A stretch of DNA of 64,000 nt. Source: Ensifer adhaerens. Its GTDB lineage: Bacteria > Pseudomonadota > Alphaproteobacteria > Rhizobiales > Rhizobiaceae. The stretch spans positions 186,001 to 250,000 of the forward strand of contig NZ_LGAP01000004.1 of assembly GCF_001270265.1 (NCBI RefSeq), in the 5' to 3' direction. The number at the start of each line of letters is the position of its first letter. Position 1 is the stretch's first letter. Positions 48,185 through 57,886 of this stretch are shown in pieces. A model generated the notes under the pieces. The model saw only the letters and a list, made by a program, of their open reading frames with translations. It searched no databases and had not been told where the DNA came from. A program made the position numbers and the translations under genes.

Positions 48185-48205
48185 TACCGCATGAGAGACG
48201 CAACG

Positions 48206-49387
48206 ATGCAGACGGCCACGCTATCGGCAATCGGTGACGGCATGGATCCCGGCTTCGGGATCTATGTGCACTGGCCGTTCTGCGCGGCCAAATGCCCCTA
48301 TTGCGACTTCAACAGCCATGTGCGCCACCAACCGATCGACCAGCCGCGTTTCGTCGCCGCCTTCCTCAAGGAAATGGCGGAGGCGCGCGAGCTTTCCGGT
48401 CCACGCACGGTCACCAGCATCTTCATGGGCGGCGGCACGCCATCGCTGATGGATCCCGCCACCGTCGACGCGATCCTCTCGGGCATCGCCCGTGAATGGC
48501 ATGTGCCCGATGGCATCGAGATCACCATGGAGGCGAACCCTTCGAGCGTCGAGGCGACGCGCTTCCACGGCTACCGCGCCGCCGGCGTCAATCGCGTTTC
48601 GCTCGGCGTCCAGGCGCTGAACGATCGCGACCTCAAATTTCTCGGCCGGCTGCACAATGTCGAGGACGCGCTGAAGGCAATCCGGCTGGCGCGCGACATC
48701 TTCCCGCGCATGTCCTTCGACCTGATCTATGCCCGGCCCAACCAGACCGTCGAGCAATGGGAGCGCGAGCTTAAAGAAGCCGTCTCCTATGCCGTCGACC
48801 ACCTGTCGCTCTACCAGTTGACGATCGAGGAAGGCACGCCCTTCTTCGGCCTGCACAAGGCCGGCAAGCTGATCGTTCCGGACGGTGAACAATCGGCGGT
48901 CCTCTACGAGGCGACCCAGGACATCACCGCGTCAATCGGCATGCCCGCCTACGAGGTGTCCAACCACGCTCGGCCGGGTGCCGAAAGCCGGCACAACCTA
49001 ACCTACTGGCGCTATGGCGACTATGCCGGCATCGGACCTGGCGCCCATGGCCGCCTCAGCGTCGGCGGCGCCAAGGTGGCGACGGCAACCGAACGCAAGC
49101 CGGAGGAATGGCTGCGACTGGTCGAAACCTACGGCCACGGCATGGTCGAGCGCGAGGTGCTCGACCATGAAGCCCAGTCGGACGAATTGCTGCTGATGGG
49201 CCTGCGCTTGAAGGAAGGCGTCGATCTCGCCCGCTGGCAGACGCTCTCCGGCCGCGATCCCGATCCGGACCGCGAGCAGTTCCTGATCGATCATGGCTTC
49301 ATCGAACGGCTTGGCAATTCGCGCCTGCGCTGCACGCCCGCCGGCATGCTGATCCTCGACGCCGTCGTTGCCGACCTCGCCTGCTAA
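48206..49387 (+). CDS. hemW: radical-SAM heme chaperone HemW
   Basis: HemN-related protein now regarded as a heme chaperone rather than a coproporphyrinogen oxidase. The radical-SAM cysteines are in HWPFCAAKCPYCDFNSHV (C-x3-C-x2-C), with GGGTPSLM and the C-terminal HNLTYWRYGDYAGIGPGAHG typical of HemW. I place the start at ATG 48206, with GAGAG eight bases upstream, giving 393 residues; ATG 48191 (398 residues) abuts the upstream repeat and has no ribosome-binding site, and ATG 48242 is also possible. Confidence 0.93.
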   Translation: MQTATLSAIGDGMDPGFGIYVHWPFCAAKCPYCDFNSHVRHQPIDQPRFVAAFLKEMAEARELSGPRTVTSIFMGGGTPSLMDPATVDAILSGIAREWHVPDGIEITMEANPSSVEATRFHGYRAAGVNRVSLGVQALNDRDLKFLGRLHNVEDALKAIRLARDIFPRMSFDLIYARPNQTVEQWERELKEAVSYAVDHLSLYQLTIEEGTPFFGLHKAGKLIVPDGEQSAVLYEATQDITASIGMPAYEVSNHARPGAESRHNLTYWRYGDYAGIGPGAHGRLSVGGAKVATATERKPEEWLRLVETYGHGMVEREVLDHEAQSDELLLMGLRLKEGVDLARWQTLSGRDPDPDREQFLIDHGFIERLGNSRLRCTPAGMLILDAVVADLAC

Positions 49388-49426
49388 CAACCCGCCCATG
49401 CGCATCAATCACGACGCGCCGAAGGC

Positions 49427-50041
49427 TCAATCGTGCGTCTCGCCGGAAAGCGGCGTCGCGCGCATGGATGGCCGGTCCTCAAAGGCATCGAACCAGGCGG
49501 TCAGCCTTCTCCGGTCACGGAACGACGGCAACTCGCGGAATGCCATCCAGGACAGGGCCGTGGCGAGAGCGATGTGGCCGATATCGAGCGGCGCGTCGAC
49601 ATCGAGCGTCTGTTCCAGCCAGTCATAGGTCTGCTCGACCTTTTCGGTGTAGCCGTCGGCCAGCGCCGGGTAGCGCAGGGCTGCCGGGCGCCGATCCGTT
49701 TCCCAGCGCAGCCCGATGCCGGCCTGGGCCAGCCCTTGCGCGACAGCCTGCAATCGCAAGGAGCGCCAACGCGCCTCGCCGCTTTCGGGGATCAGCCTGC
49801 GGCCATCATGCAACGTATCGAAATAGGCGCAGATGACGTCGGAATCGAAGATCGCCTCTTCACCGGGGCGCAAGAGCACCGGCACCTTGCCGAGCGGGTT
49901 TTCCGCATGGACCTTTTCGTTGCGCAACGTCGGGCTGGTCTCGTGATGGATTACCTGCAAGCGCTCGGCGATCCCCACCTCGTGGGCGAAGACAAGCGCT
50001 TTACGGGCAAAGGGGGAATGGGTCTGATAATAGAGGATCAT
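49427..50041 (-). CDS. glutathione S-transferase family protein
   Basis: A 204-residue GST-like protein. The N-terminal thioredoxin fold has YQTHSPFARKALVFAHEVG (Ser before Pro could activate glutathione) and NPLGKVPVLL with the cis-Pro, then FDSDVICAYFD. A helical C-terminal domain contains DIGHIALATALSWM. A terminator lies between it and the ECF42 operon upstream, so it is likely its own unit. Substrate unknown. Confidence 0.88.
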   Translation of the reverse strand: MILYYQTHSPFARKALVFAHEVGIAERLQVIHHETSPTLRNEKVHAENPLGKVPVLLRPGEEAIFDSDVICAYFDTLHDGRRLIPESGEARWRSLRLQAVAQGLAQAGIGLRWETDRRPAALRYPALADGYTEKVEQTYDWLEQTLDVDAPLDIGHIALATALSWMAFRELPSFRDRRRLTAWFDAFEDRPSMRATPLSGETHD

Positions 50042-50109
50042 GGGGTGCCTCGCGGGTTTGTGGGAAAGTCCTTGGTCCCGCGAAGATGTATTGCATCCAA
50101 AGAGAGAAA

Positions 50110-50130
50110 GGCGCTCTGTTTCAGAGCGCC
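50110..50130 (-). terminator. intrinsic terminator ending the ECF42 operon
   Basis: GGCGCTCTG (50110-50118) pairs perfectly with CAGAGCGCC (50122-50130) across a three-base loop, followed on the minus strand by TTTCTCTCTTT. It lies 23 bases after the DUF1801 stop and marks the end of the operon. Confidence 0.85.
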
Positions 50131-50152
50131 CTTTGCAAGTTTGTTTCGCCGT

Positions 50153-50521
50153 TCAAGATTTGAACGGATCGCCCTTCTCGGCGTTGAGCGCGATGCCCCT
50201 GGCCACCAGCCGCGCCATCTGCGCTTGGTCGACCTCTCCCACCACCTTCACCTTGATATAGGCCATGTCGCCCTTGCCGCCGCCCTTGGCCAAACGCGGG
50301 TCGAGGTCGAGCATGTCGGCGCCGCGCCAGAAGCCGAGGGTCACGTGATCCTTGGCTGCCTTGATCAAACAGACCGGTCCGCCGGCCTCATAGACCGCGT
50401 GGCCCCATTTCACGATATCCTTTGTACCGCCGGCCGCGAGAATGGCACCGTGCAATTCCTTCGCCACCTCCGCCGGCGTGCCTGAAAGACCCGCGATATA
50501 GTCGTTGACTGTTTTGCTCAT
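50153..50521 (-). CDS. DUF1801 domain protein
   Basis: A 122-residue YdhG/DUF1801-like protein. The core includes WGHAVYEAGGPVCLIKAAKD and VTLGFWRGADMLD, as in the family. It is the last gene of the ECF42 operon (27 bases after doxX-like gene, terminator following). DUF1801 genes are frequent companions of SRPBCC and VOC genes in such operons. Biochemical role unknown. Confidence 0.85.
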   Translation of the reverse strand: MSKTVNDYIAGLSGTPAEVAKELHGAILAAGGTKDIVKWGHAVYEAGGPVCLIKAAKDHVTLGFWRGADMLDLDPRLAKGGGKGDMAYIKVKVVGEVDQAQMARLVARGIALNAEKGDPFKS

Positions 50522-50548
50522 GGTTCAAGGTCTCCTTGTCGGCAGCGT

Positions 50549-50962
50549 TTAGTTCGTGAACGGTATCAGGTCGCGCACGCGACGATCTCTCAGCCACAGA
50601 CCGGCCCAGGCGATGACGCCGAGATAGAAGCCGAACAGCAGATGAGTGAAAATCGGGCTGTCCGCACGCAGATGGGTCGCCATGGCGCCGCCGAGATAAC
50701 CGGTCAGCAGAATGGCGCCGAGCACCGACGTTCTCGGGATCGCGTAGAGCAGCGCGCACAGAAGCGTCAGCACGCCGAGCAGGCGGGCAAGGCCCGCATC
50801 GGCAGGATAACCGAGCACTGCCAGCGTCTCGGTCACCACGTCCAATGGCACGAGCTTGATCGCTCCGTCGAATGTCAGGAACAGAACAACCAGACCGCTC
50901 AACACGCGGCCGAGAATCACCGTTTTTCCAGCCGGAGCCGTCATAACAAGAGCAGTGTTCAT
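50549..50962 (-). CDS. DoxX-family membrane protein
   Basis: A 137-residue protein with four hydrophobic segments (about residues 16-38, 55-72, 79-97 and 107-124). The motif LSGLVVLFLTFDGAIKLVPL and GVLTLLCALLYAIPRTSVLGAI fit DoxX/DoxX-like proteins, small quinone- or redox-linked membrane proteins. It is in the ECF42 operon between the SnoaL-VOC fusion and DUF1801. Precise function unknown. Confidence 0.85.
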   Translation of the reverse strand: MNTALVMTAPAGKTVILGRVLSGLVVLFLTFDGAIKLVPLDVVTETLAVLGYPADAGLARLLGVLTLLCALLYAIPRTSVLGAILLTGYLGGAMATHLRADSPIFTHLLFGFYLGVIAWAGLWLRDRRVRDLIPFTN

Positions 50963-51003
50963 TCGGGGAGGTCTCCTCGTTTTCCGTTGTCACAAATCGT
51001 TTT

Positions 51004-51870
51004 TCAGTCTGTTTTCTTCACCGGCCCGACGATGCCCCAGCGGATGCCGAAGGGATCGCGCAGCTGGCCGTAGAGATCGCCCCAGAAGGCGACCGCAAGC
51101 GGCATCGTCACCTCGGCGCCGGCGGCAACCGCGCGGTCCCACCAGAATTGCGCGTCCTCGACCACCAGATGCAGGACGACACCCTGGGGTGCGGCATAGG
51201 GCATGCCGTGTTCCGGGAAGGGATCGTTGAGCATCAAGGCGCCGCCGTTGATCGTCAGATGGCAATGCATCAGTCGCTTGCCATCGTCGGCGAGCATCCG
51301 CCCGCCATCGGTTGCGGCAAAGGCATTCACGTAGAAGTCGGCGGTCGCGTTCGCATCCTCGACGCAGAGATAGGCGATCGGGCCCGGCATCGGCGGCGGC
51401 GCAGGCGCTTGCCAATCGACCGTCGATTTCGGATTGAGATCGATGGCCGCCTTGAGGCTGCCATCCATGTAGAACGGCACGGACTCGTGCTGGTGTGCGA
51501 TCTTCCAGCCGGCCGCGGTGCGCTTCAAACCGAGGGTCTGGCGGAACCAGACCGATATTTTTCCAGCATCGACCTTCTCGCCGGAAAGCTCGGTGAGCAT
51601 GGTGACGAAAGCAACGTCGCCGCCGACCGAGATATCGAGACCCTCGAAGCGATAGCCGAGCGGTCCGCGCCAGGTAGAAAACCACTGTTCGAGCCCGCCT
51701 TCGCTGGCGTCGGAGGTCTTCAGCGGCGGCGCCAGCGAAAAGAGCACGCAATCCGGCGTCCCATGGCCGATAACACCTTTCGCATCCTTCACCCGTAGGG
51801 CATCCGCCCAATCATCGATCACCGCACGGATTTCGGCGACGGCAGCACTCTTGTTGTCGATCACGGACAT
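51004..51870 (-). CDS. SnoaL-like / VOC fusion protein
   Basis: A 288-residue two-domain protein. Residues about 8-135 form a SnoaL/DUF4440-like NTF2 fold (IRAVIDDWADALRVKDAKGV; FVTMLTELSG; WFRQTLGLKRTAAGWKIAHQ), and residues about 155-285 a PhnB/VOC domain (AYLCVEDANATADFYVNAFA; HCHLTINGGALMLNDPF; DPFGIRWGIV). A Pro-rich linker APAPPPMPGP joins them. Each domain is more often found alone; fusion suggests both act on one small molecule. Located in the ECF42 operon; substrate unknown. Confidence 0.88.
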   Translation of the reverse strand: MSVIDNKSAAVAEIRAVIDDWADALRVKDAKGVIGHGTPDCVLFSLAPPLKTSDASEGGLEQWFSTWRGPLGYRFEGLDISVGGDVAFVTMLTELSGEKVDAGKISVWFRQTLGLKRTAAGWKIAHQHESVPFYMDGSLKAAIDLNPKSTVDWQAPAPPPMPGPIAYLCVEDANATADFYVNAFAATDGGRMLADDGKRLMHCHLTINGGALMLNDPFPEHGMPYAAPQGVVLHLVVEDAQFWWDRAVAAGAEVTMPLAVAFWGDLYGQLRDPFGIRWGIVGPVKKTD

Positions 51871-51933
51871 GGTGGGTCTCCTTTCCCCATGGTGGCAGGC
51901 GCGAGGGCGAAGCCCTTCGAGCCACGGACTTGA

Positions 51934-52416
51934 TCAGAGTTGCTTGGCTGTGCCTTCGAGCTGGCTGGCGCATTGGCCCCAACCCTGGTGAAAGCCCATC
52001 TTTTCGTGGACCTCGCGATCCTCGGCGGACCAGTGGCGAACGCGGGCCGTATAGCGGGTCTTGGCCCCGACATCCTCGAAGGTGATGGTCACGACCATGA
52101 ACGGCTTGTCGGATGGCGCCCACGCATCGGTGAAGGCATCGGTGAAGACCAGCTTCTCGTTCGGCACCACTTCGAGATAAACGCCGAGATTGGGATAATC
52201 CTCGCCCTCGGGCGAGCGCATGACGATGCGGTTGGCGCCGCCGGCGCGAACGTCGAGCTTTGCCTCCGGCGTCGTCCAGGGCAAAGGCGCGAACCACTTC
52301 TTCAGCAGTCCGGCATCGGTCCAGCAGCGGTAGACGAGTTCACGCGGCGCATCGATCAGCCGAGTGATGACCAGTTCGCGGTCGTCGGCAGCTTTGATTT
52401 CAGTGACAACGGTCAT
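51934..52416 (-). CDS. SRPBCC (AHSA1/START-like) protein
   Basis: A 160-residue AHSA1-type ligand-binding protein: TRLIDAPRELVYRCWTDAGL, LKKWFAPLPWTTPEAKLDVR, and the C-terminal HEKMGFHQGWGQC with SQLEG, typical of the family. I use ATG 52416, with GGAGAAG six bases upstream. An ATG at 52443 is unlikely because it would coincide with the transcription start expected from the promoter-like site at 52450-52476. Common in ECF41/ECF42 operons; function unknown. Confidence 0.9.
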   Translation of the reverse strand: MTVVTEIKAADDRELVITRLIDAPRELVYRCWTDAGLLKKWFAPLPWTTPEAKLDVRAGGANRIVMRSPEGEDYPNLGVYLEVVPNEKLVFTDAFTDAWAPSDKPFMVVTITFEDVGAKTRYTARVRHWSAEDREVHEKMGFHQGWGQCASQLEGTAKQL

Positions 52417-52449
52417 TGTTGGCTTCTCCGTCAGCGGGTTCATTCCAAG

Positions 52450-52476
52450 GACGAAGCTGCAAGCGCGGTCCCGACA
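52450..52476 (-). promoter_or_regulatory. candidate ECF42 promoter before the SRPBCC gene
   Basis: On the minus strand: TGTCGG (52476-52471), a 17-base spacer and CGTC (52453-52450). It matches the site at 54166-54192 in spacing and in flanks: both read TTGTCG and CGTCCTTG. The published ECF42 consensus, as I recall it, is TGTCGA at -35 and CGWC-like at -10. Confidence 0.6.
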
Positions 52477-52493
52477 ACCGCCGACAGGATTTT

Positions 52494-53768
52494 TTATCTT
52501 TCTTCTTTTGCGAGGTCTTTTTCACCCGCATCCCTGCTCAAATGATCGAGCTGCATGCGAATGTGGGAAGCTTCCGCCGCATTGGTGGCAAGGGCGATGG
52601 CACGGTCGAAGGCGATGCGCGCCTCGCGGACCCGGCCCGCCTGCTTCAACAGCGCCCCGTTCAACCCATGGAAGTAGAAGTAGCCGGCGAGTTTTTCGGC
52701 AAGCGGCTCGATCAACGCCAGGGCTGCTTCCGGCCCGTCCCGCTTTGACACGGCGACGGCGCGGTTGAGCGTGATGACCGGCGACGGCTGCAGCCGCTCC
52801 AGCGCCTGATAGAGCAGGTCGATCTCTTCCCAGTCGGTTTCTTCGGGGCGTGTAGCGCGCGCATGTAGCGCGGCGATCGCCGCCTGGATCTGATAGGGGC
52901 CCGGCTGACGATGGCGCACCGCCTTGTCGATCATGGCCAACGCCTCGATGATCAGTGGCTTCTTCCAGAGGCTACGATCCTGATCATCGAGCAGGATGAT
53001 GCCGCCATCGGCATCGAAGCGCGCACGCGAGCGCGAGTGCTGCAGCAGAAGCAGGGCCGTCAGCCCCATCATTTCAGGCTCGGAGGGGAACAGCCGCAAG
53101 AGCAGCCGCGCGAGCCGGATCGCCTCCTCGCAAAGATCGGCCGAGACACCGTCCGGCCCATTCATCGCCGAATAGCCTTCGTTGAAAACCAGGTAGATCA
53201 TCGTCGCAACCGCCGCCAGCCGCTCCGACCGGTCGGCCGCGTCAGGCGTTTCGAAGGCGATGCCGGCGGCGGCGACACGGGACTTCGCCCGGGTGATGCG
53301 CTGCTCCATCGCCGCCTCGCCGACGAGAAAGGCGCGGGCAATCTGCTTGACCGAAAGGCCGGAAACGATCCGCAGTGCCAGCGCGATCTGCTGCGTTGCC
53401 GGAAGGACCGGATTGCTGCAGACAAACAACAGCTTGAGAATATCGTCACGATAGTGGGAACCATCCAGCCGTTCGGCAAGATCGCTCTCCTGATCCTCGA
53501 GATCGGAGAGCAATTCTTCCGGCGGCAGCGCGGTCTCCCGCGACTGGCGGCGCACCTTGTCGATGCCGCTGTTGCGGCCGACGAAGATCAGCCAGGCGGC
53601 GGCATCGCGCGGCGGGCCGCTCTTCGGCCAGGTCTTCAATGCCCGGATACAGGCCTCCTGAAATGCTTCCTCGGCCGTATCGAGATTGCGGAAATAGCGC
53701 AGAAGCGCGCCCATTGCCTGCGGCCGAGCGGAAACAAGTGCGAGGTCGATCCAGGTCGTGTCTGTCAT
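52494..53768 (-). CDS. ECF42-type RNA polymerase sigma factor
   Basis: A 424-residue sigma factor. Sigma region 2 (residues about 10-75: YFRNLDTAEEAFQEACIRAL) and region 4 (about 105-160: LRIVSGLSVKQIARAFLVGE) are followed by a DUF6596/TPR-like C-terminal extension of about 250 residues (PYQIQAAIAALHARA; YFYFHGLNGALLKQAGRVRE). This long extension, no anti-sigma gene and a DGPF (YCII) gene immediately upstream (overlap four bases) are the hallmarks of ECF42. It is the second gene of the operon. Confidence 0.93.
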   Translation of the reverse strand: MTDTTWIDLALVSARPQAMGALLRYFRNLDTAEEAFQEACIRALKTWPKSGPPRDAAAWLIFVGRNSGIDKVRRQSRETALPPEELLSDLEDQESDLAERLDGSHYRDDILKLLFVCSNPVLPATQQIALALRIVSGLSVKQIARAFLVGEAAMEQRITRAKSRVAAAGIAFETPDAADRSERLAAVATMIYLVFNEGYSAMNGPDGVSADLCEEAIRLARLLLRLFPSEPEMMGLTALLLLQHSRSRARFDADGGIILLDDQDRSLWKKPLIIEALAMIDKAVRHRQPGPYQIQAAIAALHARATRPEETDWEEIDLLYQALERLQPSPVITLNRAVAVSKRDGPEAALALIEPLAEKLAGYFYFHGLNGALLKQAGRVREARIAFDRAIALATNAAEASHIRMQLDHLSRDAGEKDLAKEER

Positions 53769-54139
53769 GCGGGAAACTCACTTGGCTTGTAGATGGCAAG
53801 GGGACGAATTTCATAGGAACCATCAGCCGGATTGGCTGCACTCAGCTCACGGGCGAAATCGAGCGCTTCGTCCAGCGAAGCGCAATCGACGACGTAGAAG
53901 CCGAGCAGTTGCTCCTTCGTTTCGGCAAACGGACCATCAATGACGACGGTCTCGCCAACAGTGTGTCGCAGGGTCGTTGCCGCTGTCGTCGGCAGCAGCC
54001 GCGCCACCGGTCCCAGCTTGCCGGCATCGCCATATTTGCGCTGGACGGCGGCAAGATCGCGCATGACCTTGTCGTCCTCCTCCTTCGTCCAGTTGGCGGT
54101 GACGTCTTCCTGGTTGTAGCAAAACACGGCGTAAAGCAT
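53765..54139 (-). CDS. YCII-related DGPF-motif protein
   Basis: A 124-residue YCII/DGPF-domain protein. It begins MLYAVFCYNQEDVTANW and bears IDGPFAETKEQLLGFYVVD, the DGPF motif of the family. It overlaps the ECF42 gene by four bases, indicating coupled translation. In other bacteria DGPF proteins are genetically linked to ECF42 factors and are proposed partners or targets; function is unproven. ATG 54139 has GGAGAG upstream. An ECF42-type promoter precedes it. Confidence 0.92.
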   Translation of the reverse strand: MLYAVFCYNQEDVTANWTKEEDDKVMRDLAAVQRKYGDAGKLGPVARLLPTTAATTLRHTVGETVVIDGPFAETKEQLLGFYVVDCASLDEALDFARELSAANPADGSYEIRPLAIYKPSEFPA

Positions 54140-54165
54140 TGGAACTCTCCTGCTCCTGTCACAAG

Positions 54166-54192
54166 GACGATCTGACGAAGAGATAGTCGACA
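54166..54192 (-). promoter_or_regulatory. candidate autoregulatory ECF42 promoter before the DGPF gene
   Basis: On the minus strand TGTCGA (54192-54187), 17 bases and CGTC (54169-54166), 27 bases before the DGPF start. Exact match to the consensus I recall for ECF42, and near-identical to the second site at 52450-52476. Confidence 0.65.
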
Positions 54193-54200
54193 AGACAGAC

Positions 54201-54225
54201 AAAAAAAATACCCGCAACCGCGGGT
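54201..54225 (-). terminator. intrinsic terminator of the DMT-transporter gene
   Basis: ACCCGC (54210-54215) pairs with GCGGGT (54220-54225), followed on the minus strand by ATTTTTTTT. It lies between the transporter gene and the ECF42 operon, isolating the two. Confidence 0.85.
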
Positions 54226-54290
54226 TCAAACATGAAGACCGCGGCAGGCACTTGCGCGCCGCCGCGGCCATTCAGCAGGACTGACCGATT

Positions 54291-55253
54291 TCAGATATTC
54301 TCACCGCAGGCGAGATCAGGATCGACCGGTGCCTTGCGCCGGAAACGCCGAAGCAGGCGGCCGTCGATGGCGGCAAGGCCGGCTGCGATCAGCGCCATGC
54401 CGAAGAAATGCTTCGGCTCGAGGCTTTCGCCGAGGAACAGGGCACCGAGCAGAATGGCGCTGACCGGGATCAGAAACGTCACCAGCATCAGATTGGTGAC
54501 CCCCGCAGTTTCGAGGATGCGGAAGAACAGCACATAGGCAAGCGCTGTCGAGATCAGGGCGATGCCGACGATCGCGCCCCACACCTCAAGGCCCGGCGCG
54601 GTCAAGGCCCAGGGACGATCGACGAGAAGCGCGATCGGCACCAGCATGATACTCGATGCACTGACCTGCCCCGTCGCGGTGACGATCGGCGCCACGCCCA
54701 TCCGCTTGAAACGACGGGCAAATACCCCGGCAAAGGCATAGGAAAGGGCAGCCCCCAGCACGGCGAACTGCGCCAGCACATTCGAACCAAGGCCACCGAG
54801 CGCCGCCGGGCCGATCATCACCGCCACGCCGAGAAAACCGAGCAGCACGCCGGAGAGCTTGTTGGCGGTCAGCTTTTCGTCGTCCGTCAGCAGGTGGGCG
54901 ACGACGACGCCGAAGAGCGGCGTCGTCGCATTGAGGATGGACGCAAGGCCGCTGGCGATATGGGTCTGGCCCCAGACGATCAGCGAAAACGGGATCAGAT
55001 TGTTGAGCAGGCCCATGCCGAAGAAGGCAAGCCAGATGCGAGGGTCGCGGGGCATCGAGCGCCCGGTGAAACGCAGGAAGATCAAAAGTGCCGCGGCTGC
55101 GAGGCTGACCCGCAATGCGACGATAGTGAAGGGCGGAAGCGCCTTGACGGAGACGCCGACGAAGAAAAACGAGCCGCCCCACAGCAGGGACAGAGCGATC
55201 AGCATCGCCCACTCGCCGGCGCCCATCACCTTTGCATTCGCCGGTCCAGACAT
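54291..55253 (-). CDS. EamA-family (DMT) transporter
   Basis: A 320-residue inner-membrane protein with about ten hydrophobic segments in two EamA repeats (about residues 15-140 and 155-290). Typical features are LLWGGSFFFVGVSVKALPP and, near the end, VSAILLGALFLGESLEPKHF. Likely a metabolite exporter or drug/metabolite carrier; the substrate is unknown. It is divergent from a LysR-type gene, which probably regulates it. It ends in an intrinsic terminator. Confidence 0.9.
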   Translation of the reverse strand: MSGPANAKVMGAGEWAMLIALSLLWGGSFFFVGVSVKALPPFTIVALRVSLAAAALLIFLRFTGRSMPRDPRIWLAFFGMGLLNNLIPFSLIVWGQTHIASGLASILNATTPLFGVVVAHLLTDDEKLTANKLSGVLLGFLGVAVMIGPAALGGLGSNVLAQFAVLGAALSYAFAGVFARRFKRMGVAPIVTATGQVSASSIMLVPIALLVDRPWALTAPGLEVWGAIVGIALISTALAYVLFFRILETAGVTNLMLVTFLIPVSAILLGALFLGESLEPKHFFGMALIAAGLAAIDGRLLRRFRRKAPVDPDLACGENI

Positions 55254-55399
55254 CTTCGCACCCCTTCAATGATTTAATTTTACACTCATGACTCCATGAT
55301 GTTGTCATCAATCACGGAATTTACATGAATATTGTCAGTATGTTATGATTTATTCAAACGAGCATTTCTCTCTCAATGATTGAGGCTAGCTAAATCATT
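55254..55399. promoter_or_regulatory. divergent control region with a LysR-type dyad
   Basis: The gap between the divergent transporter and LysR genes is AT-rich. A perfect 7+7 inverted repeat AATGATT (55375-55381) and AATCATT (55393-55399) with the T-N11-A LysR-box geometry touches the lysR ATG. A third AATGATT lies at 55268-55274, 14 bases from the transporter start. Confidence 0.6.
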
Positions 55400-56281
55400 A
55401 TGACCTCGCTTCCCTCCCTTTCGGCCCTCAGAGCCTTCGAAGCCGCCGCCCGACATTTGAGCGTCACTCTGGCCGCGCGCGAACTCAACGTCACGCCAGG
55501 GGCCGTCAGTCTGCAGGTGCGCGAACTGGAGCAGACGCTGGGCGTCACGTTGTTTGAGCGACGCCCTCGGCAGCTCGTTCTGACCGAGGATGGCAGCACC
55601 TATTTTTCGACGCTGCGGCGCGCCTTCCGCATGATGCGGGAGGCGACCGAGGACCTGACGGCGCGAAATCGCGCGCCGGTGCTGACGGTGAGCTGCACCC
55701 CAACCTTTGCGGCACAATGGCTGGTGCCGCGGGTCAGCGATTTCGAGCAGCGCCTCAATGGCATCGACATTCGCATCAGCGCCTCCAACCGGCTGGCGGA
55801 CTTTGTGTCCGATGGCGTCGACATCGCCATCCGCCACGGCTTCGGGCGCTACGAGGGCCTGGCGAGCGAGCGGCTGATCGATGACGACCTGGTGCCGGTC
55901 GTCAATGCGGCGCTCGCCCGCAAGCATCCGCTCTCCACGCCGGCCGATCTTTCCGCCCATATATTGCTGCATGACGTTCAAAGGCTGGACTGGCAGCTCT
56001 GGCTGGAAGCCGTCGGCGCCGAAGGCATCGAGACCACGCGCGGCCCGGTCTTCGTCAACAGCAATGGCGCCATTGAGGCTGCAAAAGCTGGCGACGGCGT
56101 CGCTCTCGTTCGCCTGTCACTGGTTTCGCGCGAGCTTGCCGAGGGCGTGCTGGTCGCGCCGTTCCCGATCGGCATTGCCACCGACCTCGCCTATCACCTG
56201 GTCTACCCGCCATCGGCGCTCGACCGGCCGACCGTTGCGTCTTTCCGCGCCTGGGTCGTCGAGCAGGCACGCAGCGTCTGA
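55400..56281 (+). CDS. LysR-family regulator (GcvA-like)
   Basis: A 293-residue regulator. The N-terminal helix-turn-helix lies at residues about 5-65 (LSALRAFEAAARHLSVTLAA; VTPGAVSLQVRELEQTLGVT), followed by a substrate-binding domain of the GcvA/AmpR type (SCTPTFAAQWLVPRVSDFEQ). ATG 55400 has no clear ribosome-binding site and directly adjoins a LysR-box dyad, consistent with autorepression. Divergent transporter is the probable target. Effector unknown. Confidence 0.92.
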   Translation: MTSLPSLSALRAFEAAARHLSVTLAARELNVTPGAVSLQVRELEQTLGVTLFERRPRQLVLTEDGSTYFSTLRRAFRMMREATEDLTARNRAPVLTVSCTPTFAAQWLVPRVSDFEQRLNGIDIRISASNRLADFVSDGVDIAIRHGFGRYEGLASERLIDDDLVPVVNAALARKHPLSTPADLSAHILLHDVQRLDWQLWLEAVGAEGIETTRGPVFVNSNGAIEAAKAGDGVALVRLSLVSRELAEGVLVAPFPIGIATDLAYHLVYPPSALDRPTVASFRAWVVEQARSV

Positions 56282-56291
56282 AACGAAAAAA

Positions 56292-56309
56292 GCCCGGTTT
56301 CCCGGGCCT
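56292..56309. terminator. terminator between lysR and dnaA
   Basis: GCCCGG, three T, CCGGGC within AAAAAAGCCCGG...CCGGGCCTTTCTC, 10 bases after the lysR stop and 30 before the end of dnaA. A-run and T-run at the two sides suit bidirectional termination of the converging genes. Confidence 0.8.
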
Positions 56310-56338
56310 TTCTCGTAATCAGAATGCAAGTCTGACGC

Positions 56339-57886
56339 CTATTCGTTGATCAGGCGCTTCAGAAGCTCGATCTCATGGCTGAGCTTGGTATCGCCGGAGA
56401 TCAACTCCTCGATCTTGCGCACGGCATGCAGAACCGTCGTGTGATCGCGGCCACCGAAGCGACGGCCGATTTCCGGGAAGGACCGCGGCGTCAACGTCTT
56501 CGACAGATACATGGCGATCTGGCGCGGCTTGACGATGACGCGGGTGCGGCGGTTCGAAACCAGCTCCTGGCGCGAAACATTGTAATGCTTGGCAACAACG
56601 CGCTGAATGTCCTCGATACGGACGCGGCGCGGCTCGCCGGCATTGACGAGATGGCCGAGCAGTTCGTCAACCCGTTCGATCGACAGCTGCGGCTCGAACG
56701 AGCGACGGAAGAGCAGCTGGTTGAAGGCGCCTTCAAGTTCGCGGCCGCTGGCGGTGATGTTGCGTGCAACGTGGCTCAGGATATCGCCGGGAATGTCCAG
56801 CGAGGTATCGTCCTGACGGGCAGAGTCGAGCCGACGCTTCAGCATTTCGAGGCGCATGTCGTAGTCCGGGCCGTCCATTTCGATGGCGACACCGCCCTGC
56901 AGGCGCGAGCGAACGCGGCTATCGAGCGATTCCAGCTCCCAAGGGGCGCGGTCGGCGGCGACGACGACCTGCTTGGCCGAGTCGAGCAGCATGTTGAGCA
57001 GGTGGCAGAACTCGTGCTGGATCGACTTGCCCTGCAGGAACTGCATGTCGTCGATAACAAGCAGATCGATGTTGCGCAGCGATTCCTTCAGCGACAGCGC
57101 GTCGTTGTCGCGGATCGCGGTGGCAAAGCGCCACATGAAGTATTCGGCCGTCAGATAGACGACGCGCGGCGCCCGGGCGCTCTGGAGGGCCTGGATAGCG
57201 ATCGCCTGCAAGAGGTGGGTCTTGCCGAGCCCGACGCTCGAATGAATGAACAGCGGGTTGAAGCGCACAGCACCGGCGCCGGCCTCGGCGATCGTGCGGG
57301 CGGCTGCAAGGGCAACACGGTTGGAAGAGCCCTCGACGAAGCTGTCGAAGGTGTAGCGCTGATCGAGCGGCGAACCGAAAAGCGGCGCCTGGGTCGGCCG
57401 TTGAACGCTGGCGACCGCAGCGGCTGCGACCGAGGCCACGGACTGAGCCGTGGTCGGGCGGCGCGCCGGCGCTGCCGGAGCCGTTTCAGCTGCCTGCGGC
57501 AGTGTTTCTTCCTGCGAAGCCGGACGGGCGCCGCGGGTGGCGGTACGCACCAAGATCTCCACCTTCAAGATCTCGCCGTCTTCCTGCTGGAAGATCTGGG
57601 TGATGAGATCGAGATAGCGGTTGTTGATCCAGGACTTCAGGAATGTCGTGGGCACCGAGAGACGCACGACGCTCTTGGAAGTCGAATGGAGCTTCAGGCG
57701 CCCAAACCAGCTAGCGAAGACATCGGGACCGACCTGGGCTTTCAAACGCGCACTCACCCGCTCGAACAGTGCGTCATGCCTCATGTCGTGCTTATCTCCC
57801 GCCGCCTGAGATAGATTGCTTCCGGACTGAAATGCGTCGCCGTCCTTTTGAAACGCGCCCGCCGCCGTCGCCACATTCATCTGCAT
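56339..57886 (-). CDS. dnaA: chromosomal replication initiator DnaA
   Basis: AAA+ initiator protein. Domain I (about residues 36-110: [20 protein letters not shown]), a variable Ala-rich linker (about 130-165), ATPase domain with Walker [16 protein letters not shown] and Walker [14 protein letters not shown], and domain IV (about 420-515) with the DnaA signature [18 protein letters not shown]. The ATG at 57886 has GGAAGG seven bases upstream (515 residues); a second start at 57784 (481 residues) also has a plausible site and fits the classical length. As far as I recall, S. meliloti oriC lies near hemE, not here. Confidence 0.97.

Follow-up and report, generated by a model that had tools for sequence, protein, structure and literature searches.

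The locus examined here raises the question of whether an ECF42-type sigma factor of Ensifer adhaerens drives its own operon from two matching promoters, one before the first gene (P1) and one inside the operon (P2), as a preliminary description of the sequence had proposed. The stretch analyzed, called the window below, covers 64,000 nucleotides of contig NZ_LGAP01000004.1, and the features found in it and at related sites are collected in Table 1. The P2 transcript was predicted to start at 52441, by reference to the start mapped in S. meliloti, and the P1 transcript near 54157, by reference to the S. meliloti P2 start. Because an in-frame ATG at 52443 precedes the predicted P2 RNA start, the start codon of the SRPBCC gene was set at 52416. 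The 12-pair hairpin after the DUF1801 gene is the likely operon end.

Table 1. Operon features, predicted promoters and related sites (window positions, unless a contig, C, or locus, L, is given)
Feature	Position	Strand	Remarks
EamA gene	55253-54291	minus	gene upstream of P1
Intrinsic-terminator-like hairpin and T run	54210..54225	minus	between EamA gene and P1; weak
P1, predicted ECF42 promoter of YCII-sigma transcript	54162..54193	minus	TTGTCG-N18-CGTCCTTG
YCII/DGPF-type protein, 124 aa	53765..54139	minus	Pfam PF03795; SMc01151 orthologue by position and family
ECF42-type sigma factor, 424 aa	52494..53768	minus	Pfam Sigma70_r2, Sigma70_r4_2, DUF6596; RpoE10/SMc01150 orthologue
P2, predicted internal ECF42 promoter before cargo genes	52446..52477	minus	TTGTCG-N18-CGTCCTTG
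SRPBCC/AHSA1 protein, 160 aa	51934..52416	minus	PF08327; SMc01149 orthologue; start codon inferred
SnoaL-like and VOC (glyoxalase) fusion, 288 aa	51004..51870	minus	PF13474, PF00903; SMc01148 orthologue by position
DoxX-like membrane protein	50549..50962	minus	PF13564
DUF1801 protein	50153..50521	minus	PF08818
Terminator-like hairpin, 12 pairs	50107..50133	minus	after DUF1801
VOC	C9:83049, C56:40583		core site before gene, own genome
PhnB-type	C12:720532, C38:20796		core site before gene, own genome
DUF1428	C12:720676		core site, divergent from PhnB, own genome
GST	C25:16247		core site before gene, own genome
Second YCII	C29:54204		core site before gene, own genome
Alpha/beta hydrolase	C41:23140		core site before gene, own genome
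Inverted-repeat loci	L039-L047, e.g. L040 after sigma stop		clade with DoxX after P2

The sigma factor was analyzed using Pfam, a structure model and a fold search. Pfam matched PF04542 (5.3e-12), PF08281 (1.2e-07) and, at residues 183-283 of 424, DUF6596 (8.8e-34); no further sigma domain and no TPR domain was matched by Pfam in this protein. The predicted structure had helices from residue 177 to 423, with block pLDDT values of 72-95 for residues 211-410 and 67 for the whole chain. In the fold search, the best PDB matches were TPR proteins (Tom70, consensus TPR and Pex5) with low TM-scores; the best E value for the sigma model was 2.4e-04, and three matches had an E of 0.001 or less. Several traits of ECF42 factors were found at this locus, besides the restriction to sigma2 and sigma4 among the sigma domains: a C-terminal extension of about 200 residues, made up of DUF6596 and the modelled helices; a YCII/DGPF gene (PF03795) directly upstream of the sigma gene; and, as predicted target promoters, P1 and P2 with the sequence elements TGTCGR and CGTC. 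A YCII/DGPF neighbour is presumably also present beside the ECF42 gene in S. venezuelae, X. campestris and P. putida. These data support the view that the window protein is ECF42-like. In the available parts of PMC8999054 and PMC8103513, ECF42 of S. venezuelae and X. campestris and ECF-10 of P. putida are described with a TPR-rich C-terminal extension of about 200 residues; they are like the window protein in being extended C-terminally, but their hosts and contexts differ. The S. meliloti orthologue, RpoE10, was assigned to ECF42 by ECFfinder (PMC6180224, cited here and below from the accessible part of the article), and the S. meliloti 4H41 protein is 85% identical to that of the window. The window protein was the sole DUF6596 match in its genome. 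All 16 genus genomes searched had an orthologue, and so, at E 1e-100, did 122 of the 297 genomes sampled from the family. The closest among the named relatives listed, a list that may omit records very near the window, was Ensifer sp. LC163, with a 99% identical sigma protein.

Both minus-strand sites lay where they had been described, before the YCII/DGPF and SRPBCC genes, with the core TGTCGR-N17-CGTC spanning 54192-54166 (P1) and 52476-52450 (P2). The spacer of 17 bases given for them applies when the -35 element includes the purine that follows TGTCG; counted from TTGTCG, it is 18. The elements of P1 and P2 equal those of the three promoters that Table 1 of PMC6180224 gives for RpoE10. A scan of the window with spacers of 16-18 gave 12 motif matches, against 1.7 expected in shuffles, and between 49000 and 54100 it found none but P2, in agreement with the claim that the operon has no third copy. 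A promoter scan found no sigma-70-type promoter on the minus strand before the YCII gene. In the genome of 7,459,544 bases, the exact 14-base pair at the P1/P2 spacing had two copies, P1 and P2, and 7 additional sites were one mismatch away. The genome-wide search for TGTCGR-N17-CGTC suggested in the preliminary description was less specific: it returned 69 sites (33 + 36), against 23 (12 + 11) for the reversed control, and 12 of the 69 lay between genes and had a gene start no more than 100 nt away, the genes being called by a codon-usage script that misplaced some starts. Because the short core is this common, the evidence is carried by the extended motif and its context.

The conservation of P1 and P2 was examined in the best 80 loci of 290 named relatives, partly of the same species; spacers of 16-18 were allowed and 17 was favoured by half a mismatch. 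The best P1 site had a perfect core in 73 of the 80 loci and was within one mismatch in 79, with a spacer of 17 in all 80. P2 was found within one mismatch in 52 of the 80 (perfect in 47), and the spacer was 17 in each of the 52. This comparison with relatives had been named as a check of the two promoters, and the outcome that was to refute them, a lack of conservation, did not arise. Among 16 genus loci, P2 was present in all and P1 with TGTCG in 15; the P1 variants were C for the purine in L037 and CGTCG in L033, and the gene after P2 was SRPBCC in seven and DoxX in nine. A further 25 family loci had P1 in 24 (the -35 of L161 was changed) and P2 in 16. The spacing of both sites was nearly always kept; the one exception was L158, which has one extra spacer base at P1 and at P2 in comparison with L159, their sigma proteins being very similar. 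Seven loci carry a second sigma gene (40-42% identical), and in none of them did a site lie directly before the YCII-like gene. In two of them, L052 and L053, a core was found about 900 nt before the second sigma gene, far ahead of the start of the YCII-like gene. The second ECF42-like sigma genes at these two loci (41-42% identical) lie about 3 kb from the first ones (L046 and L044).

The presence of P2 followed the cargo genes. The 52 loci with P2 were exactly the 52 in which a cargo match began no more than 300 nt from the sigma stop (SRPBCC in 46, DoxX in 4 and VOC in 2). The other 28 loci lack P2, and their best-scoring match in the same gap had 2 to 3.5 mismatches, which indicates the background level. 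In 14 of these (8 Neorhizobium, 3 Rhizobium, 2 Rhizobiales and 1 Pseudorhizobium), an SRPBCC match was located 499-2004 nt downstream, and in all 14 a perfect core lay 74-117 nt before it. The last 14 loci had neither a cargo match, that is, a tblastn match at E 1e-8 with the cargo query set, nor a plus-strand core downstream of the sigma gene. Since P2 is present with the cargo or displaced alongside it, the motif goes with the cargo gene rather than with the 3' end of the sigma gene.

The claim that P1 and P2 have different surroundings needs correcting, as each of them is preceded by an A/T run that lies 9-21 bases before TGTCG (TATTTTTTTT at P1 and ATAAAAAAT at P2). Among the named relatives, an A/T run of at least 5 occurred 25 to 8 bases upstream in 78 of 79 P1 and 48 of 52 P2 sites, compared with 12 of 158 control stretches taken 62-100 bases upstream of P1. 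By its sequence, the A/T block resembles an UP element. At P1 of the window it doubles as the T run of the hairpin between the EamA gene and P1; the hairpin search gave 8 such sites in the region against 5.1 expected in shuffles, a weak excess. A terminator before P1 as a general feature was rejected, the counts being 17 of 79 P1 sites, none of 52 P2 sites and 23 of 395 shuffled stretches. A second kind of hairpin was seen in the nine genus loci with DoxX after P2, where an inverted repeat of 6-9 bases around TCCTTGGA/TCCAAGGA overlaps the ribosome site; the repeat was listed for eight of these loci (Table 1), the ninth being identical to one of them over the compared stretch. Since the -10 region contains its 5' arm, this hairpin could be formed by read-through RNA only, and P2 transcripts would lack the 5' arm. 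A 7-base version was present at the PhnB promoter of the window's own genome, and of the 92 sites that carry CTTG or CTAG, 14 had arms of at least 7 bases, where shuffling would give 3.9. As an explanation for the present operon the ribosome-site hairpin was dropped, as P1 and P2 of the window lack any such repeat.

The two-site arrangement was already known, because it has been reported for the orthologous operon of S. meliloti, SMc01151-rpoE10-SMc01149-SMc01148 (Lang et al. 2018, PMC6180224), whose genes are the first four of the window's operon and which has the motif before the first and the SRPBCC gene, as in the window. In that work, RpoE10 was overexpressed (rpoE10 log FC 4.9) and arrays showed six genes up in total, with log FC of 1.6 for SMc01149, 1.8 for SMc01148, 1.3 for SMb20475 and 1.1 for SMb20474. 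The SMc01149 promoter was published as CCCTGTCGGCAGGCGGCATCCTCCTTCGTCCTTGGAATg, with the start in lower case, and the authors attribute this start to earlier RNA-seq (their reference 22); the accessible main text of PMC3616915, a paper on S. meliloti start sites, names neither SMc01149 nor SMc01151. Locus L157 carries the published S. meliloti P2 sequence at the orthologous place. A near-identical motif precedes SMc01151 and overlaps its 5'-RACE start, and SMc01151 was not raised by RpoE10 overexpression (PMC6180224). Thus, in S. meliloti the start of the internal promoter is mapped and the cargo is raised by the sigma factor. P2 of the window carries the same motif, and the RpoE10 dependence and start site demonstrated in S. 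meliloti would by analogy apply in the window's species. That P2 is an ECF42 promoter is strongly supported, and the proposal that cargo genes rise above the sigma gene would be in line with the S. meliloti result. Autoregulation is contradicted in S. meliloti because SMc01151 did not respond to RpoE10 (PMC6180224). The original claim that the sigma factor drives its own operon is partly supported: the part concerning P2 has behind it the S. meliloti start, the log FC of the two cargo genes and the co-occurrence of P2 with cargo, while the part concerning P1 met a negative result in that species, and autoregulation through P1 is a possibility for the window's species.

The two operons differ in other respects. 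Both are located between dnaA and a hemW-type gene, as identified by Pfam in the window and by annotation in S. meliloti Ak57; in the window, but not in S. meliloti, the operon extends to DoxX and DUF1801, a GST gene follows, and the stretch from dnaA to P1 holds LysR and EamA genes. When positions 48191-57886 of the window were compared with L335, LysR, EamA, DoxX, DUF1801 and GST were absent from the dnaA-hemW interval of S. meliloti Ak57, which reflects gain in one lineage or loss in the other. In the ECF42/rpoE10 literature, as far as its text was accessible, no further paper on this operon was found.

P1 and P2 were then compared in the four bases after CGTC. At P2 these were CTTG in 33 and CTAG in 3 of 47 sites, and at P1 they were TTCA in 20, ATTG in 12, CTTG in 5 and CTAG in 1 of 74. 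In the 46 loci with both cores, which are related and not independent events, CTTG or CTAG stood at P2 alone in 30, at P1 alone in 1, at both sites in 5 and at neither in 10. These data suggest a P1 weaker than P2 in most of the species, in agreement with the S. meliloti result. The window, L234, L235, L236 and L292 have CGTCCTTG at both sites (P1 of L292 has C for the purine), whereas P1 of S. meliloti 4H41 (L255) has CGTCTTCA, so the window's clade may differ from the others in P1 strength. L252 encodes a sigma protein with 99% identity to that of the window and has CTTG at both sites, but a mismatch in the -35 of P1.

The reading that we consider very probable is that the encoded RpoE10 orthologue reads both P1 and P2. 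P2 would drive SRPBCC, SnoaL-VOC, DoxX and DUF1801 apart from the sigma gene, and P1, heading the YCII-sigma transcript, would give weak or conditional positive feedback, perhaps dependent on lineage, as it was not seen in S. meliloti. A signal acting through the C-terminal TPR-like domain would raise the cargo more than the sigma factor, and the same factor probably also serves dispersed small-enzyme genes that carry the motif. A somewhat doubtful alternative is that only P2 works as an ECF42 promoter, with P1 a relic or the promoter of another sigma factor and the YCII-sigma transcript free of feedback. The unchanged level of SMc01151 and its 5'-RACE start over the motif (PMC6180224), the 30 to 1 split of CTTG/CTAG in favour of P2 among the 46 loci, and the -35 mismatch of L252 all point this way; however, the P1 core was kept in more loci than P2 (79 and 52 of 80) at a fixed spacing, P1 has CTTG in the window's clade, and a relic would hardly retain an A/T block in 78 of 79 cases. 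At the other extreme, P1 and P2 could be equal, full-strength ECF42 promoters in the window's clade, with strong autoregulation that is absent in S. meliloti. This agrees with CGTCCTTG standing twice in the window and four other loci where S. meliloti 4H41 has CGTCTTCA at P1, but the role of CTTG in promoter strength is deduced from conservation, and L252 combines CTTG at both sites with a defective match at the P1 -35, so we regard it as unlikely. Since P1 differs between S. meliloti and Ensifer, swapping the four bases after CGTC would put autoregulation to the test.

A chance match of the paired sites in a GC-rich genome has next to no probability. The short core occurs 69 times, with 12 sites in the intergenic position, as chance would allow, but the conservation of the sites and their co-occurrence with cargo rule this out, and the S. 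meliloti start also stands against it. Taken as a whole, the preliminary description had identified a true feature and its reading was mostly correct: the internal promoter is firm, and autoregulation was negative in S. meliloti. The core design and the internal promoter are known from the S. meliloti orthologue (PMC6180224); the co-occurrence rule, the A/T block, the difference between P1 and P2 and the dispersed target set are new here.

The dispersed motif sites were examined in the window's own genome and in its relatives. Ten of the 12 intergenic core sites were P1, P2 and the eight sites before the VOC, PhnB-type, DUF1428, GST, second YCII and alpha/beta hydrolase genes in Table 1; the remaining two were at a TetR gene and an uncertain start. 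The longer motif TGTCGR-N17-CGTCYTTG had 86 sites in the 16 genus genomes, against 3 for the reversed control. Outside the operon, the 15 other genus genomes had 53 such sites, of which 49 had the start of a gene of a recognised family in the next 110 nt and 4 had none. The families behind the 49 were 15 VOC, 14 RibD_C-type, 11 PhnB and 9 others, as judged by short motifs drawn from these same proteins, with Pfam support on representatives; one of the starts (L226) opened a frame of 16 codons only. The motif preceded VOC in all 15 genomes, RibD_C-type in 14 and PhnB in 11. The RibD_C-type gene of the window's own genome has CAGTCGG at -35. A 40-residue VOC fragment gave no Pfam match, whereas the whole VOC protein did. 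In the order-wide search, TGTCGG-N17-CGTCCTTGG was found in 50 of 297 genomes, the window's own included, with one reversed-control match in the table.

The spacer dependence was analyzed by allowing 13-21 bases in the genus, which gave 371 matches (48 in the reversed control), with 86 at 17 and an average of 36 at the other eight spacers. Spacers of 15 and 18 were frequent among the matches listed, many in coding frames, and these off-spacing matches were judged to come mostly from codon phase. Because other spacers give many coding-frame matches, the reversed control was too lenient and was replaced by genome position. In the window's own genome, 4 of 6 N17 sites were in promoter position, compared with none of 20 with other spacers (21 were found and one identical copy was dropped). 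At C12:720528-720706 (L085 and L069), two divergent motif sites lie about 115 bases apart, before PhnB-type and DUF1428 genes, and form a candidate ECF42 promoter pair. On contig C29 (27510, 31003 and 33712; L317-L319), three copies of the same 32-base motif-like stretch with N18 lie within about 6 kb; those that were classified run antisense to coding sequence, which suggests repeated genes.

Dispersed motif sites before genes were more numerous in the window's species than in S. meliloti, for which six RpoE10 targets are reported, including SMb20475-SMb20474 (PMC6180224); a PhnB-like frame follows the published SMb20475 promoter. Judged by their upstream motifs, the dispersed genes form a candidate regulon that is wider than the one published for S. 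meliloti, and this wider set (VOC, RibD_C-type and others) was not found in the accessible text of the ECF42/rpoE10 literature. We tentatively propose, as a view with slightly less than even chances, that Ensifer ECF42 governs a dispersed detoxification-type regulon in addition to a graded P1/P2 pair whose feedback can be off or on between lineages. The regulon would include VOC, PhnB, RibD_C-type reductase, DUF1428, GST, second YCII and hydrolase genes, and in some genomes ABM and MFS genes, and it would share with the operon one promoter class with an upstream A/T block. The -10 extension of P1 may have been tuned weaker in most Rhizobiaceae and have returned to consensus in the window's clade. 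Sigma factors of the ECF42 group are widespread, but few have been studied, according to the available parts of two reviews (PMC8999054 and PMC8103513). A promoter that travels with its cargo, together with a conserved list of genes under the same promoter, offers a direct means of defining the regulon and of guessing the stress to which it responds.
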